Shown piece after piece: positions 16,923 to 31,443 of a stretch of DNA of 37,351 bases (position 1 is the first letter of the stretch; every line of letters starts with the position of its first letter). The notes beneath the pieces are model-generated. The model had not been told where the DNA came from and did no database searches. It saw only the letters and a list, made by a program, of their open reading frames with translations. Made by a program: the position numbers and the translations under genes. The stretch is taken from the IMG/VR virus record IMGVR_UViG_3300042879_002662, positions 1-37,351 of that record. One strand, written 5' to 3'. The DNA comes from a virus.

Positions 16923-17085
16923 GTGACGCAGGGCGTGACGCGCCTGCCTTTACTGGGCAAGAGTCATCAGTTCGAACCCTGTATCGCGCACCATCTTGGA
17001 TTGACTCTCCCCACGTAAGAGTGGGTGATTGAGGGACACGGGTGGACGGGTTGAGACAGAAAGGGCGTGACGTGGAACGTGACGC
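16923..17085. other. attP: putative attP with flanking GTGACGC pairs
   Basis: The core 16969-16993 looks like the 3' end of a tRNA gene: T-loop TTCGAAC (16971-16977), CCTGT, then ATCGCGC and ACCA (16990-16993). The rest of a tRNA is absent. On the left GTGACGC occurs at 16923 and 16935. On the right GTGACGT occurs at 17067 and GTGACGC at 17079. Each pair is spaced 12 bp, like arm-type integrase sites. The integrase gene follows at once. Confidence 0.72.
16928..16950 (+). terminator. possible terminator after the lysis genes
   Basis: GCAGGGCG (16928-16935) can pair with CGC-G-CCTGC (16939-16947): eight base pairs with one bulge and a TGA loop, followed by a short T run (CTTTA). It overlaps one of the GTGACGC repeats of the att region, so the symmetry may serve integrase binding instead. 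Confidence 0.35.
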
Positions 17086-17099
17086 GGTTAGCGTGGGGG

Positions 17100-18254
17100 A
17101 TGAAGGTGCGAGAACGAATTTATAAAGGGGGACGTGTGGCTTGGCAGCTGGATCTGGGAGTGGTGGATGGGAAACGGGTGCAAAGGGCCTATGAAACGAA
17201 AGAATCGGCGATGACGGCGATGCGGGATGCGCGGGCGGCAAGGCGCAAACATGGAGACCAGGCGGTGATGCTTTCGGCGGGGGAGGTGGCGGAGGTGGTG
17301 AGGCTGAAGGAGGAGCTGGATCGATGCGGGGCGACGCTGGGGGAGGCGGTGCGGTTTTTTCTGGCGACGTCGGGTCGGGTGAAGTTGCAAGCGGATGCGG
17401 TGCTGCTGCCGGAGTTGGTGCGGCGGTTTATTGCATCAAGGACGACGGCGGGGTGCGGTCGGCTTTATACGAACCAGCTGAATGTATCGCTGGGGTCGTT
17501 GGGGCGCATGTATTCGATCCTGCCTGCGTCACAACTGACGCGTGACGCGGTGGAGCGATGGTTGGCCGGCAATGGGTGGGCTGCGAAAACGCGCAACAAT
17601 TACCTGGGCGATGCGCGGGCTCTGTGTGCCTGGTCGGTGGAGCAGGGGTGGATGCTGGTGAATCCGTGCGTGAAGATCGCCAAGGTGAGGGAGATCCGAG
17701 AGGAGATTGAGACGCTAACTCTGGCTCAATGCAAGAGGCTGCTGGATGCGGCCGTGCAGGATCCGGCTGTGTGTGGCTATGTGGTGCTGTCGCTTTTCTG
17801 TGGGATCCGGAGAGCGGAGGTGGGGCGCATGAGTTGGGACGCGGTGGATCTGGAGCACAAGACAGTGATCGTGGCTGAGAAACATGCGAAGGCGACGCGG
17901 GCGCGGTCGCGTCGGGTGGTGGATCTGCATGGGAATGCGATCGCTTGGCTGCGGGCTTGCTATGGGGCCTCTTTGCCGACTGGGAAGATCTGCCAGGGGA
18001 GGTTTGGCGATGTGTGGCTGGCGTTTCGAAAGCCGGTGATCGGCGTGGACGAGTGGCCGCATAATGCGATGCGGCACACGTTCGCTTCGATGCACTATGC
18101 CATGTGGGAAAACGAGGCGAAGCTCCAGGTGCAGATGGGGCACGAGAGCGCCTCGATGCTGCATCGGAATTATCGGGCGATTAAGACGCGCACGGAGGCT
18201 GCGGCTTTTTGGGATCTGCGACCGGATAAGCCAGCGAAAAGGACACCGAAATGA
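17100..18254 (+). CDS. int: tyrosine-type integrase
   Basis: 384 residues from ATG 17100. An in-frame GTG at 17067 is possible but lies inside the GTGACGC repeats. The basic N-terminal part (1-55) would bind arm sites. A SAM-like core-binding domain covers about 100-195 and the catalytic domain 205-370. Catalytic residues visible: R237 in CGIRRAE, K264, R325 in NAMRHTFAS, H348 in MGHES and Y358 in HRNYRAI. The usual His of HxxR is Asn322, with His321 beside it. Integrates the phage at attB, probably in a tRNA gene, with attP directly upstream. Confidence 0.92.
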   Translation: MKVRERIYKGGRVAWQLDLGVVDGKRVQRAYETKESAMTAMRDARAARRKHGDQAVMLSAGEVAEVVRLKEELDRCGATLGEAVRFFLATSGRVKLQADAVLLPELVRRFIASRTTAGCGRLYTNQLNVSLGSLGRMYSILPASQLTRDAVERWLAGNGWAAKTRNNYLGDARALCAWSVEQGWMLVNPCVKIAKVREIREEIETLTLAQCKRLLDAAVQDPAVCGYVVLSLFCGIRRAEVGRMSWDAVDLEHKTVIVAEKHAKATRARSRRVVDLHGNAIAWLRACYGASLPTGKICQGRFGDVWLAFRKPVIGVDEWPHNAMRHTFASMHYAMWENEAKLQVQMGHESASMLHRNYRAIKTRTEAAAFWDLRPDKPAKRTPK

Positions 18255-18342: not shown

Positions 18343-18690
18343 TCACTTGTGCCGGAAAGCGGCGACTTCGCTCTGGATCTCGTAGACCACGAGCGAGAAG
18401 TTGGTGCCGTGTTTGGCTTTGGCTTTGGTGATGATCTGGATGATCACACTGGAGGGCACTCCGTGCGCTCCGAGGGCTTGGTAGTGCGAGAGCACATCGT
18501 AGGCGTTGAATTGGGAGTCCATCTCATAGACCTGCAAGCTGAGATCCGTGGGATGTTTGGCCACTGCATTTTCTTTGACGGCGGCGATGACGGCTGGAGG
18601 CATCGGGAGCGATGGCTGCAACGCGTTTGCAGGGCAGGCCATGAGAATGAGGAATCCGAACCCGAAACAAAGAAGAGAGGAAGCGTGCAT
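18343..18690 (-). CDS. exported protein with two ~30-residue repeats, lysogeny-linked accessory gene
   Basis: 115 residues. I chose the start at 18690 because it begins a Sec signal peptide (hydrophobic residues 5-19, ending ANA at 21-23, cleavage before L24). The mature protein holds two similar units, about residues 34-64 and 82-112. Each contains AKHxT(D/N)xSLxVYE followed by a helix with Ser and Ala (YEMDSQFNAY, YEIQSEVAAF). It is on the minus strand 38 nt downstream of the RHH regulator and so probably expressed in the lysogen. Candidate lysogenic-conversion or superinfection-exclusion factor acting in the envelope. No family assigned with certainty. Confidence 0.7.
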   Translation of the reverse strand: MHASSLLCFGFGFLILMACPANALQPSLPMPPAVIAAVKENAVAKHPTDLSLQVYEMDSQFNAYDVLSHYQALGAHGVPSSVIIQIITKAKAKHGTNFSLVVYEIQSEVAAFRHK

Positions 18691-18728
18691 GCGTGGAGTT
18701 AACAGGGTAGGCAGGTCGAGGTCAATGA

Positions 18729-19073
18729 TCAAATCACGGGTGCCTTCGTGATGGGCTCAAGGATGTGGGCCTTGCGCATGACGAGGTAGGTGGGCAAGGG
18801 CGCGGCTGCGTTGCGGACATCGATGCTGCCTTTGCGCTTGCCACCGAAGGAACCTTTTTCAGAGAGAAGGGCGATGTCGTCCTTTTGGTGGGCGCGATCC
18901 ACAATGGCTGCGGCGATGTCGTAGTTGCATCGCTTGAGATCCTCAAGGCCGATGCGCATGGCGAGCTTCATGACGTCCTGTTTGCTGAGATGGACCAGGG
19001 CAGCCACCTTTTCAATTTTTTCGGCGAGGTCGTTTGGGATCGCAATGGGGGTGGGTTTGGAAGAGGCGCTCAT
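18729..19073 (-). CDS. RHH (MetJ/Arc-type) DNA-binding regulator, putative lysogeny repressor
   Basis: 114 residues. Residues 7-47 (PIAIPNDLAEKIEKVAALVH, then LSKQDVMKLAMRIGLEDL) fit a ribbon-helix-helix fold: one beta-strand then two helices. It is clearly related to the divergent protein at 19150 (shared LSKQDVM and IPNDLAEKIE / MPAELEARIE). The C-terminal 60 residues are extra and may bind an inducer or partner. It is transcribed away from the early operon, with the exported protein gene behind it. The place beside integrase and opposite the early operon is that of a phage repressor. RHH proteins in this role are uncommon. Confidence 0.7.
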   Translation of the reverse strand: MSASSKPTPIAIPNDLAEKIEKVAALVHLSKQDVMKLAMRIGLEDLKRCNYDIAAAIVDRAHQKDDIALLSEKGSFGGKRKGSIDVRNAAAPLPTYLVMRKAHILEPITKAPVI

Positions 19074-19079
19074 GAACTA

Positions 19080-19149
19080 AAATGCACCTGATATAAATTT
19101 CTTCAAGTTTGTTGTTGCAATGATATAAGATTCTTATATCATCCCAATC
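19080..19149. promoter_or_regulatory. divergent promoter-operator of the two RHH genes
   Basis: The AT-rich gap holds a perfect 10-bp inverted repeat, ATGATATAAG (19120-19129) - ATT - CTTATATCAT (19133-19142), and a further direct half-site TGATATAA (19089-19096). The palindrome TTGCAA (19115-19120) can be the -35 for both directions. Rightward: -10 TATCAT at 19137-19142 with 16-bp spacing. Leftward: -10 TTTATA 17 bp away on the other strand. Binding by either RHH protein would block both promoters. Confidence 0.75.
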
Positions 19150-19332
19150 ATGAGCGACAAGAAAAAGCCAAACACGAAGAGACCGGTGCCCATCTCCATG
19201 CCTGCTGAATTGGAGGCCCGCATCGAGACCACCTCCACCCTCGTCAAGCTGAGCAAGCAAGACGTCATGCGCCTCAGCATGGAGCGCGGCATCGACGTGC
19301 TCATCGCGCAGCTCACTGGCACTGCAGCCTGA
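19150..19332 (+). CDS. RHH (MetJ/Arc-type) DNA-binding regulator, putative Cro-like partner
   Basis: 60 residues, basic start (DKKKPNTKRP), then strand PVPISMP and two helices (AELEARIETTSTLVK, SKQDVMRLSMERGIDVL), the whole being a minimal RHH domain. It is a paralogue of the minus-strand protein at 18729 without its C-terminal extension. First gene of the early operon, 8 nt after the operator palindrome. By analogy with CI/Cro pairs it could repress the opposite gene and its own promoter. Confidence 0.72.
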   Translation: MSDKKKPNTKRPVPISMPAELEARIETTSTLVKLSKQDVMRLSMERGIDVLIAQLTGTAA

Positions 19333-20435: not shown

Positions 20436-21058
20436 GTGAGGAGATGGCAACGGTGGATGCGTTGGTGGCGTCGTGTGCGGGCCTCTTGGTGTCTTTGGCG
20501 CGGCGTTACTGGCGGGCGGAGTCGGGCATCACGCTGGATGAAATGATGCACGAGGCGCGGGTGTCGGTGTGGAGATCGGCGGTGCGGTGGCAGTCGTTTG
20601 AGGAGCGCACGGGCAAGTTTTCGAGCTATGCGTGGAATCGAATCCGGCATGATCTGTATCAATTCTGCTGCGACATGTCGCAGACGATTCGGGTGCCACG
20701 TCAGGCGACGCACGAGCGGAGACGCGAGATGCTGGTGCCCACGGTGAGTCTCGATGAGGTGCTGCGCGATGGGGACTCGACGCGCTACGATTTTATCCAG
20801 GCGACTGAGGAGCCGGGTGTGTATAGCGAGGATGAGGTGGAGTGGGTGCCCGATGTGATGGCGACGCTGCCGGAGCGGGAGCGGTGGGTGCTGAGGGAGC
20901 GTTTTCTCAATGAGCGCACGCATCAGAGTCTGGCCACGGAGCTGGGCATCACGCGTGAGGGTGTGAGGCAGCGCGAGCTGCTGGCCCTGCGGAAGCTGAG
21001 GAAACGGTTGGAGGCTCAGCGCAGCCTGGCTGCCACAGGAATGGGGGTGGCAGCATGA
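20432..21058 (+). CDS. phage-encoded sigma-70-family factor
   Basis: 208 residues, ATGA overlap start. Region 2: LDEMMHEARVSVWRSAVRW and FEERTGKFSSYAWNRIRHDL (residues 35-75), which contact core polymerase and the -10 element. An IRVPR segment at 86-90 is typical of the start of region 3. Region 4: LPERERWVLRERFL and LGITREGVRQRELLALRKLR (residues 146-190), with the VRQ motif of RpoD-like factors, not ECF type. A sigma factor inside the early operon would redirect host RNA polymerase to phage promoters, most likely the late genes. The TTGACAC elements before late genes are candidate targets. Confidence 0.85.
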   Translation: MSEEMATVDALVASCAGLLVSLARRYWRAESGITLDEMMHEARVSVWRSAVRWQSFEERTGKFSSYAWNRIRHDLYQFCCDMSQTIRVPRQATHERRREMLVPTVSLDEVLRDGDSTRYDFIQATEEPGVYSEDEVEWVPDVMATLPERERWVLRERFLNERTHQSLATELGITREGVRQRELLALRKLRKRLEAQRSLAATGMGVAA

Positions 21059-23107: not shown

Positions 23108-24520
23108 ATGAGCACAAAAAAAGCAAAGACGATGATGATGGGTGAGCCTGTGATGAGATCACGGGCGCGACTTTTGGAGTGGGACAAGAACCCGAGGCAG
23201 GGGGTTTATCAGGGCATCGCAGCCCTGATGGAAAGCCTGACCGCAGTGGGCCAGCAGGATGCGATCCACGTGTGGGAGAGACCGGAGGGCGATTACATCC
23301 TCAAGGGGCATCGACGGCATGAAGCGATGTCGAGACTGGTGATGAATGAGGGACTGACCAAGTGGGAGCAGTGTTTGCAGGTGGTGCATCACTTTGAGAC
23401 CGAGGAGCAGGCTTATCTGTTTTTGCTCCAAGATCACGGGCACACGGTGGCGCTGGATGCAGCGGAAAAAGTGGTGGCGACGCAGACGGCGCTGAGCATG
23501 GGGATCTCCAGTGATGCGGTGGCGGCGGCGATGGGTGTGACGGTGGAGCGGGTGCAGCTGTGGTTTGCGTTTGGGAATCTGCCGGCGGCGGCGCGTCGGG
23601 CCATGGGCGACGGGGAGCTGAGTAGCAACACGGCGGAGATCTTGATCAAGGTCTCGAAGGACAAGATGGCGGAGGCGGTGAGTGCGGTGCTGCGGGATGA
23701 GGCGACGGGGACGGCGATGAGCCATGGCCAGGCGAAGGCTTTCTTGGAGTCCAAATACCTGCTGCCTGCGAAATGGGAGATCGAGTGGCGCGAGCTGGAG
23801 CCGCGACTGAAAAAGAAGCTGACGGTGATGGATGGGCACCAATACGTGGCGTGGGAGAGTCGCGCTGATTTTGTGCTCGGTGAATCGGGCCACCCAGATG
23901 GGCAGTATGAATTTGCGGATGCGTTCATGCGGAATGGCAAGCAGTGGGGCGTCAGAGCGAAGGAGTTGGGCGTGCCGGTGTTTGTCGTCCCGGCGCCACG
24001 GAACAAGGATGGGTATGTGTTGCTGGTGTCCTCAAAGATGATCGCGGCGGCGGAGAGCGTGGTGCCGGAGCTGCCGAGGAATGGAGAAGAGCAAGATCAA
24101 GAGCAAGATCAAGAGCAAGAGCAAGATGAAGAGCGGGAGACGGAGGGACAGGGAGACGAAGAAAATAATGACGACCGAGAATGGGTGCCGAAGCTCACGA
24201 TGAATGGACCTGCGGTGAAGCGGTTGATGGGGCAGATCGCGGAGGCTCTAAGCGCAAATCCGGCGAAGGGTATGACGTGCGGCGTGGCGGAGCTGGCTTT
24301 GCCTCACTTGGTCATGGAGGCTCACGCATCCCGGGTGCTGCGTGCGTGGATGGGGGAGATGGCTCCGGCGGATCTGCTCATCCACGTGCAAGAGGACAAG
24401 AAGCAACGCGGTCAGATCCGCTGGGCTCTGCTGTTACTCTGGTGCGTGATCGGTAAGTGGGTGGAAGATCCCGAGGCGGTGCTGGGAAAACTTGCTGAGG
24501 AAATGGGGGTGGAGTTGTGA
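23108..24520 (+). CDS. ParB/Srx-domain protein
   Basis: 470 residues. The N-terminal ParB-like fold has YILKGHRRHEAMSRL (about residues 62-76), equivalent to the conserved GxRR box that binds nucleotide. A helix-turn-helix follows (MGISSDAVAAAMGVTVERVQ, about 131-150). A Glu/Gln/Asp-rich linker (about 326-360) encoded by a DNA repeat separates a helical C-terminal domain (365-470). The A/C-rich leader before it lacks a Shine-Dalgarno. No ParA is present, so a role in replication, transcription or as a ParB-type nuclease is more likely than partition. Confidence 0.78.
   Translation: MSTKKAKTMMMGEPVMRSRARLLEWDKNPRQGVYQGIAALMESLTAVGQQDAIHVWERPEGDYILKGHRRHEAMSRLVMNEGLTKWEQCLQVVHHFETEEQAYLFLLQDHGHTVALDAAEKVVATQTALSMGISSDAVAAAMGVTVERVQLWFAFGNLPAAARRAMGDGELSSNTAEILIKVSKDKMAEAVSAVLRDEATGTAMSHGQAKAFLESKYLLPAKWEIEWRELEPRLKKKLTVMDGHQYVAWESRADFVLGESGHPDGQYEFADAFMRNGKQWGVRAKELGVPVFVVPAPRNKDGYVLLVSSKMIAAAESVVPELPRNGEEQDQEQDQEQEQDEERETEGQGDEENNDDREWVPKLTMNGPAVKRLMGQIAEALSANPAKGMTCGVAELALPHLVMEAHASRVLRAWMGEMAPADLLIHVQEDKKQRGQIRWALLLLWCVIGKWVEDPEAVLGKLAEEMGVEL
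24087..24132 (+). repeat. 12-bp in-frame tandem repeat (GAGCAAGATCAA)
   Basis: About two full and two shortened copies of GAGCAAGATCAA encode the EQDQ-type linker of the ParB-like protein. The unit is a multiple of three, so slippage would change linker length without changing frame. Confidence 0.85.
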
Positions 24521-31196: not shown

Positions 31197-31212
31197 ACAA
31201 ATAAATCCAGCC

Positions 31213-31443
31213 ATGAGCCGCCCCAAGATAAATCCAAATATTAAAAAGCTAAACGTGTGCATCACGCTGACGCCAATCGTGATCGCGCTGGCGAAAAACA
31301 AATGCTTTCAAGACGGTAAAAGTCTGTCTGCAAAAATTGAGGAGATGCTGGCTGCCTACGTCTGCGATGACCTCAAGACACCGAATAGGAAGGTGAACGA
31401 ACCAGCTCTGCCAACGGCGAGCGCATTACCTCCGCAATCATGA
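31213..31443 (+). CDS. third ribbon-helix-helix type protein (accessory)
   Basis: 76 residues from ATG 31213. KKLNVCITLTPIVIALAKNK followed by GKSLSAKIEEMLAAYV fits an RHH strand-helix-helix (residues 10-50). AT-richer than the terminase gene before it. First gene of an insert between terminase and the head-joining gene. Could regulate the insert or the nearby late promoter. Stop overlaps the next start (ATGA). Confidence 0.6.
   Translation: MSRPKINPNIKKLNVCITLTPIVIALAKNKCFQDGKSLSAKIEEMLAAYVCDDLKTPNRKVNEPALPTASALPPQS

Follow-up and report, generated by a model that had tools for sequence, protein, structure and literature searches.

Two small genes diverge from each other across a 76-bp gap (19074-19149) in the DNA analyzed here, a viral stretch of 37,351 nucleotides (IMG/VR record IMGVR_UViG_3300042879_002662) that is called the window below. 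Their products are termed protein A and protein B (Table 1). An earlier note, made from the letters of the DNA, had described two divergent open reading frames across a gap of this length, and both have been confirmed. The same note had traced the pair to a duplication on the basis of a shared SKQDVM. BLASTP aligns A with B over 43 residues with 47% identity and 72% positives (E 4e-13), so that the similarity exceeds this hexapeptide, and a duplication origin is supported. The window record contains two members of the A/B family only, A and B themselves, and neither has a match in Pfam or NCBIfam.

Table 1. Genes and candidate control elements around the A-B gap, in window coordinates.
Feature	Position	Strand	Description
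Tyrosine integrase	17067-18254	+	395 aa, on the A side; Pfam PF00589 E 1.5e-10, PHROG integrase E 1.1e-32
Protein A	18729-19073	-	114 aa, ATG; RHH-like N-terminal core (about residues 4-46) and C-terminal extension; proposed lysogeny-side repressor
O2 (candidate)	19089-19103		half-site TGATATAAATTTCTT; 32 bp from the matching O1 arm; over the proposed -10 of A
Proposed A promoter	19092-19120	-	-35 TTGCAA (19120-19115), 17 bp, -10 TTTATA (19097-19092); read by eye
Proposed B promoter	19115-19142	+	-35 TTGCAA (19115-19120), 16 bp, -10 TATCAT (19137-19142); found by scan; O1 fills spacer and -10
O1 (candidate operator)	19120-19142		23-bp palindrome ATGATATAAGATTCTTATATCAT; separated from the B start codon by 7 nt
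Protein B	19150-19332	+	60 aa, ATG; RHH-like core without an extension; opens the rightward early operon; putative Cro-like partner

A direct repeat of 127 bp at the ends of the record would fit a complete or circular genome, and no tRNA gene, a possible integration site, was found in the window. The genes downstream of B have no informative Pfam or PHROG match, and no toxin or ParA-like gene was recognized beside the pair in scans with these two collections. Directly downstream of A lies a gene (18343-18732, minus strand) whose start overlaps the A stop; its product of 129 aa begins like a signal peptide, contains an internal repeat (AVAKHPTDLSLQVYEM.. / AKAKHGTNFSLVVYEI..), has no informative family match and is possibly co-expressed with A in the lysogen. 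The early operon encodes a phage sigma-70-like factor with regions 2 and 4 (20450-21058, plus strand), Sigma70_r4 being found among the 12 records described below only in the window and its closest relative, as well as a ParB-like protein (23108-24520, plus strand), with no ParA recognized among the scanned genes.

The pair and its family in related viral records

A search of viral contigs with profiles yielded 11 further IMG/VR records. The 12 records including the window, some of which may be fragments, represent about eight lineages (window/L004; L013/L014; L016; L012; L023; L024; L026; L032/L033/L034). By the family profile, each of the 12 contains exactly two A/B family members, and these are divergent in every case, with gaps of 76-89 bp once the start codons are placed. 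An integrase is found on the A side throughout, recognized by Pfam in 10 of the 12 records and by PHROG in L012 and L026. In a maximum-likelihood tree of the cores, calculated from 57 columns, A-type and B-type proteins lie on opposite sides with a support of 94/96, which falls just below the program's own star threshold. Since the two types are split in this way, a single old duplication probably preceded the parting of the lineages, which would be the simplest history. Conservation across eight lineages argues strongly that the arrangement is functional.

Family alignments bear out that the longer protein has an extra C-terminal part, as had been noticed in the window: A-type proteins carry an extension of variable length, and B-type proteins stop soon after the second helix. 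In the closest relative of the window, A is five residues shorter at its end, and 161 bp covering the gap and its flank (19075-19235) are identical within a surrounding block of about 92% identity. Of three close pairs, two show purifying selection on B, with 4 and 6 synonymous changes versus no amino-acid change.

A short motif, L[KR]VA[DE], is common to the A-type C-termini of L012, L013, L014, L016 and L024, where it follows a variable linker; the tails of these lineages otherwise differ, and the motif could be an interaction or degradation signal. In L013 (5016-5471), L014 (5012-5467) and L016 (4847-5509), a GYF-2-domain-like membrane protein, with a zinc ribbon in L013 and L014, is encoded between integrase and A, in the place of the 129-aa gene of the window.

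No homologue of A or B was found by the tblastn criterion in two scans of bacterial genome contigs, nor in named phages and plasmids. The hosts are therefore inferred solely from terminase and integrase, which match those of Akkermansia phages.

The A/B family very probably belongs to the ribbon-helix-helix (RHH) proteins. This assignment is drawn from the pattern of a short hydrophobic strand followed by two helices, from weak profile matches and from a structure model of B. The leading matches of family members, although weak, are to RHH_1 and to CopG-like and Arc-like PHROGs, with E-values in the relatives of 0.0015-0.0023 for RHH_1 and 0.0009 for the CopG PHROG. Thus, the RHH label of the earlier note gains some profile support, but no family member seen passed the curated RHH cut-off (best E about 0.001-0.002); as the RHH superfamily is very divergent, a missed cut-off lowers the odds of membership without excluding it. 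The model of B is of moderate confidence (pLDDT 70), with an extended N-terminus and helices at 19-32 and 36-45, and that of A is poor (pLDDT 54). Fold searches gave nothing significant, CopG and Arc being among the insignificant matches. A sequence search of solved structures likewise gave no significant match, the top one with the B profile being pRN1 ORF56 (E 0.15), and the RHH proteins VapB26 and ORF56 were matched weakly. Another RHH-like open reading frame (MSRPKINPNIKKLNVCITLTPIVIALAKNKCFQDGKSLSAKIEEMLAAYV; 31204-31443, plus strand) lies between terminase and portal; it is outside the A/B family and has no Pfam or PHROG match.

Candidate operators and promoters in the gap

The gap contains a candidate operator, O1, whose two perfect arms of 11 bp flank a single base (ATGATATAAGA-T-TCTTATATCAT). 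The perfect 10-bp inverted repeat reported previously is thus real, but the length of its arms was understated. All 10 pairs of a 21-mer are matched in O1, for which dinucleotide shuffles of the gap give a P of about 0.002. The third half-site reported at 19089 is also real: a 15-mer there (TGATATAAatTTCTT) matches one at 19121 (TGATATAAgaTTCTT), 32 bp apart, and forms the candidate O2, a weak palindrome. No further occurrence of the half-site with at most one mismatch was found in the window.

When the start codon of B is taken as the common reference for the gaps, the best palindrome is centered 17-21 nt upstream of B in all eight lineages: ATGATATAAGATTCTTATATCAT in the window, ACTGTATGCGTTTTGCATACAGT in L013, ATTGTATGCGTTTTGCATACAAT in L016, TCTGCATAGGTTTTCTATGCAAG in L012, ATCGTATACGAAACGTATACATT in L026, TTAGTAGTCATTTTGACTACGAT in L024, GTCATATACGTTTCGTATATTTC in L023 and ATTATATATGAAACGTATATTCG in L033. 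The pooled score of 52 out of 56 pairs compares with a shuffle mean of 31.3 (sd 1.6, maximum 38; 1000 shuffles), and it still exceeds all shuffles when L013 or the window is left out. Palindrome tests on single gaps are mostly not significant outside the window, the significance appearing only in this pooled, position-anchored test. A palindrome of about 20 bp adjoining the protein's own gene is a trait of the RHH superfamily, and the predicted operator O1 has it in all eight lineages. In seven of the eight lineages, a copy of an O1 half recurs 30-32 bp away on the side of A, with only 5/8 matching bases in L026, and no half-site was found at the expected distance from O1 in L024. The pooled score of these copies is 50, as against 33.7 for shuffles (sd 1.7, maximum 41; 500 shuffles), with a peak at 31 bp. 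As about 31 bp corresponds to three helical turns, O1 and O2 would lie on one face of the DNA.

An operator consensus common to the lineages was considered and rejected, the identity of the O1 half-site being not above that of other positions in the aligned gaps. Differing sequences at a kept position and spacing are what would be expected of a repressor and an operator that co-diverge. The Arc operator half-site may bear some likeness to ATGATATAAG, which is given no weight here.

Promoters were proposed on both strands. TTGCAA is its own reverse complement, so that a leftward A promoter can share the -35 hexamer of the B promoter. Of the overlapping promoters that, according to the earlier note, can share this hexamer, the rightward one was recovered by a scan, whereas the leftward one has a weak -10, TTTATA being a poor match to a consensus from which host promoter preferences may differ. 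Across lineages, a TTG triplet begins 16-17 nt before the O1 center in seven of eight, and a TA-rich -10 candidate lies within the right arm of O1; L012 deviates in its promoter and in its start spacing.

Shine-Dalgarno matches of 5-7 bases precede several early genes of the window, whereas B has no such match in any lineage, the longest being 2-3 bases. Many late genes of the window also have no match, so that its absence by itself proves little. The -10 of B ends about 7 nt before the ATG, which would place the start of the transcript at or beside the ATG, and B is probably translated from a leaderless mRNA.

A proposed switch and its alternatives

We consider it likely, judging from sequence, that the A/B locus, built from two RHH paralogues, serves a temperate phage as its primary switch between lysis and lysogeny. 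A role in lysogeny is suggested by the integrase next door, by the position of B at the head of the early operon and by the missing alternative repressor. As to the last point, the statement in the earlier note that genes of the CI/Cro type are absent holds for HTH_3, HTH_19 and S24: no repressor gene of these kinds was found in the 12 records, in which repressors of other classes may exist. The nearest annotated phages, Moulinsart and Chantilly of Akkermansia, which have a related terminase, a related integrase or both, carry HTH genes.

How might such a switch work? A and B would bind O1 and O2 as dimers through an N-terminal beta-strand ribbon. A on O1 would shut the promoter of B and the early genes to give the dormant state; B on O2 would shut the A promoter to give the lytic state, and B on O1 would also limit its own operon. 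Mutual repression fits this layout, in which O1 overlaps the likely promoter of B and O2 that of A. Such a circuit could be bistable, as suggested in the earlier note. With a common -35 hexamer, the polymerase could not serve both promoters at once, which would sharpen the either-or choice. A switch needs two distinct sites and two affinities, and we infer that both exist here. The two RHH cores seem to recognize one type of site, so that the C-terminal extension of A probably sets it apart from B in affinity, in oligomeric state or in the way it responds to an inducing signal.

The pair might instead be an accessory (secondary) immunity circuit that tunes one early or antirepressor-like gene, with an unrecognized primary repressor encoded elsewhere. 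Mnt and Arc do so in P22, in which immI is not essential for lysogeny (PMC11016777), and the many window genes without a family match, including many early ones, together with the further RHH-like open reading frame between terminase and portal, would leave room for it. However, immI of P22, a secondary immunity region controlling the antirepressor, is located inside the late operon (PMC8022706), whereas the present pair stands beside the integrase with B heading the early genes, and none of the 12 records has an HTH_3, HTH_19 or S24 gene. We therefore regard an accessory circuit as unlikely.

Another explanation makes A the sole repressor and B an RHH protein of an excisionase-like or early architectural kind, related to A without regulating it. 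B is indeed small, close to the integrase and free of a C-terminal extension, but sites of the same kind are found both near B and near A in the gaps, B stands at the front of a long operon and not of the integrase gene, and it is under purifying selection in most of the close pairs, which makes this explanation distinctly improbable. Antitoxins and partition proteins often have RHH domains, and a ParB-like gene is present in the early operon, so plasmid-type control by antitoxin, partition or copy-number RHH proteins was also weighed. Against it stand the lack of a recognized toxin or ParA-like gene beside the pair, the presence of an integrase and the facing of two paralogues, which is not an antitoxin layout, and we give it very little credence.

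Beyond the primary switch at this locus, which we favor, a wider claim has in our view about an even chance: in environmental temperate phages, probably of Verrucomicrobiota, two RHH paralogues would be the sole switch between lysis and lysogeny, their promoters would have a -35 in common, the B transcript would have no leader, mixed A/B dimers might form, and operators and proteins would have co-diverged into many separate immunity groups. If true, the circuit of a P22 accessory module would serve elsewhere as the main immunity switch, independently of HTH repressors and LexA-like induction. Paired divergent RHH genes with an integrase would then be a searchable signature for temperate phages whose immunity genes are missed by annotation. 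The lineages would also provide a natural set of toggle switches with operators that differ at a fixed spacing, useful for studying the evolution of repressor specificity and immunity groups.

Comparison with known systems

As in lambda CI/Cro, the locus has divergent regulators, overlapping promoters and two kinds of operator site in the proposed layout, with one gene on the integrase side and the other heading the early operon. The lambda regulators are HTH proteins, in contrast to the present locus, where HTH_3, HTH_19 and S24 were not found; A and B have no LexA-like autocleavage domain, so that the inducing signal must differ from that of lambda.

F55 of the archaeal virus SSV1 belongs to the RHH class. 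It has been described as the chief viral factor by which the lysogenic state is maintained (PMC9608457), and this small regulator sets a precedent for the maintenance of lysogeny by a small non-HTH protein. F55 differs in being a single protein with no facing paralogue, which acts at repeated 11-nt sites in several promoters of the archaeal type.

An RHH pair as the main switch of a phage was not found in the open-licence literature. Mnt and Arc of P22 are homologous and divergently encoded; Mnt exceeds Arc in length and has a C-terminal part. The targets of Mnt are arc and ant, both of which it represses, and mnt is in turn repressed by Arc (PMC11016777). Control of each other's genes by two small RHH repressors is what is proposed here, a likeness of layout; two paralogous divergent genes, one with an extra C-terminal part, are found here as well, the RHH fold being provisional. 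No ant-like gene was recognized, and no CI/C2-type repressor was found beside A/B. A mutually repressing RHH pair, as proposed for A/B, is thus already precedented by Mnt/Arc. The present pair differs in its location: it lies at the boundary between integrase and early genes, in the place of a main immunity region, and not among late genes next to a separate region of primary immunity.
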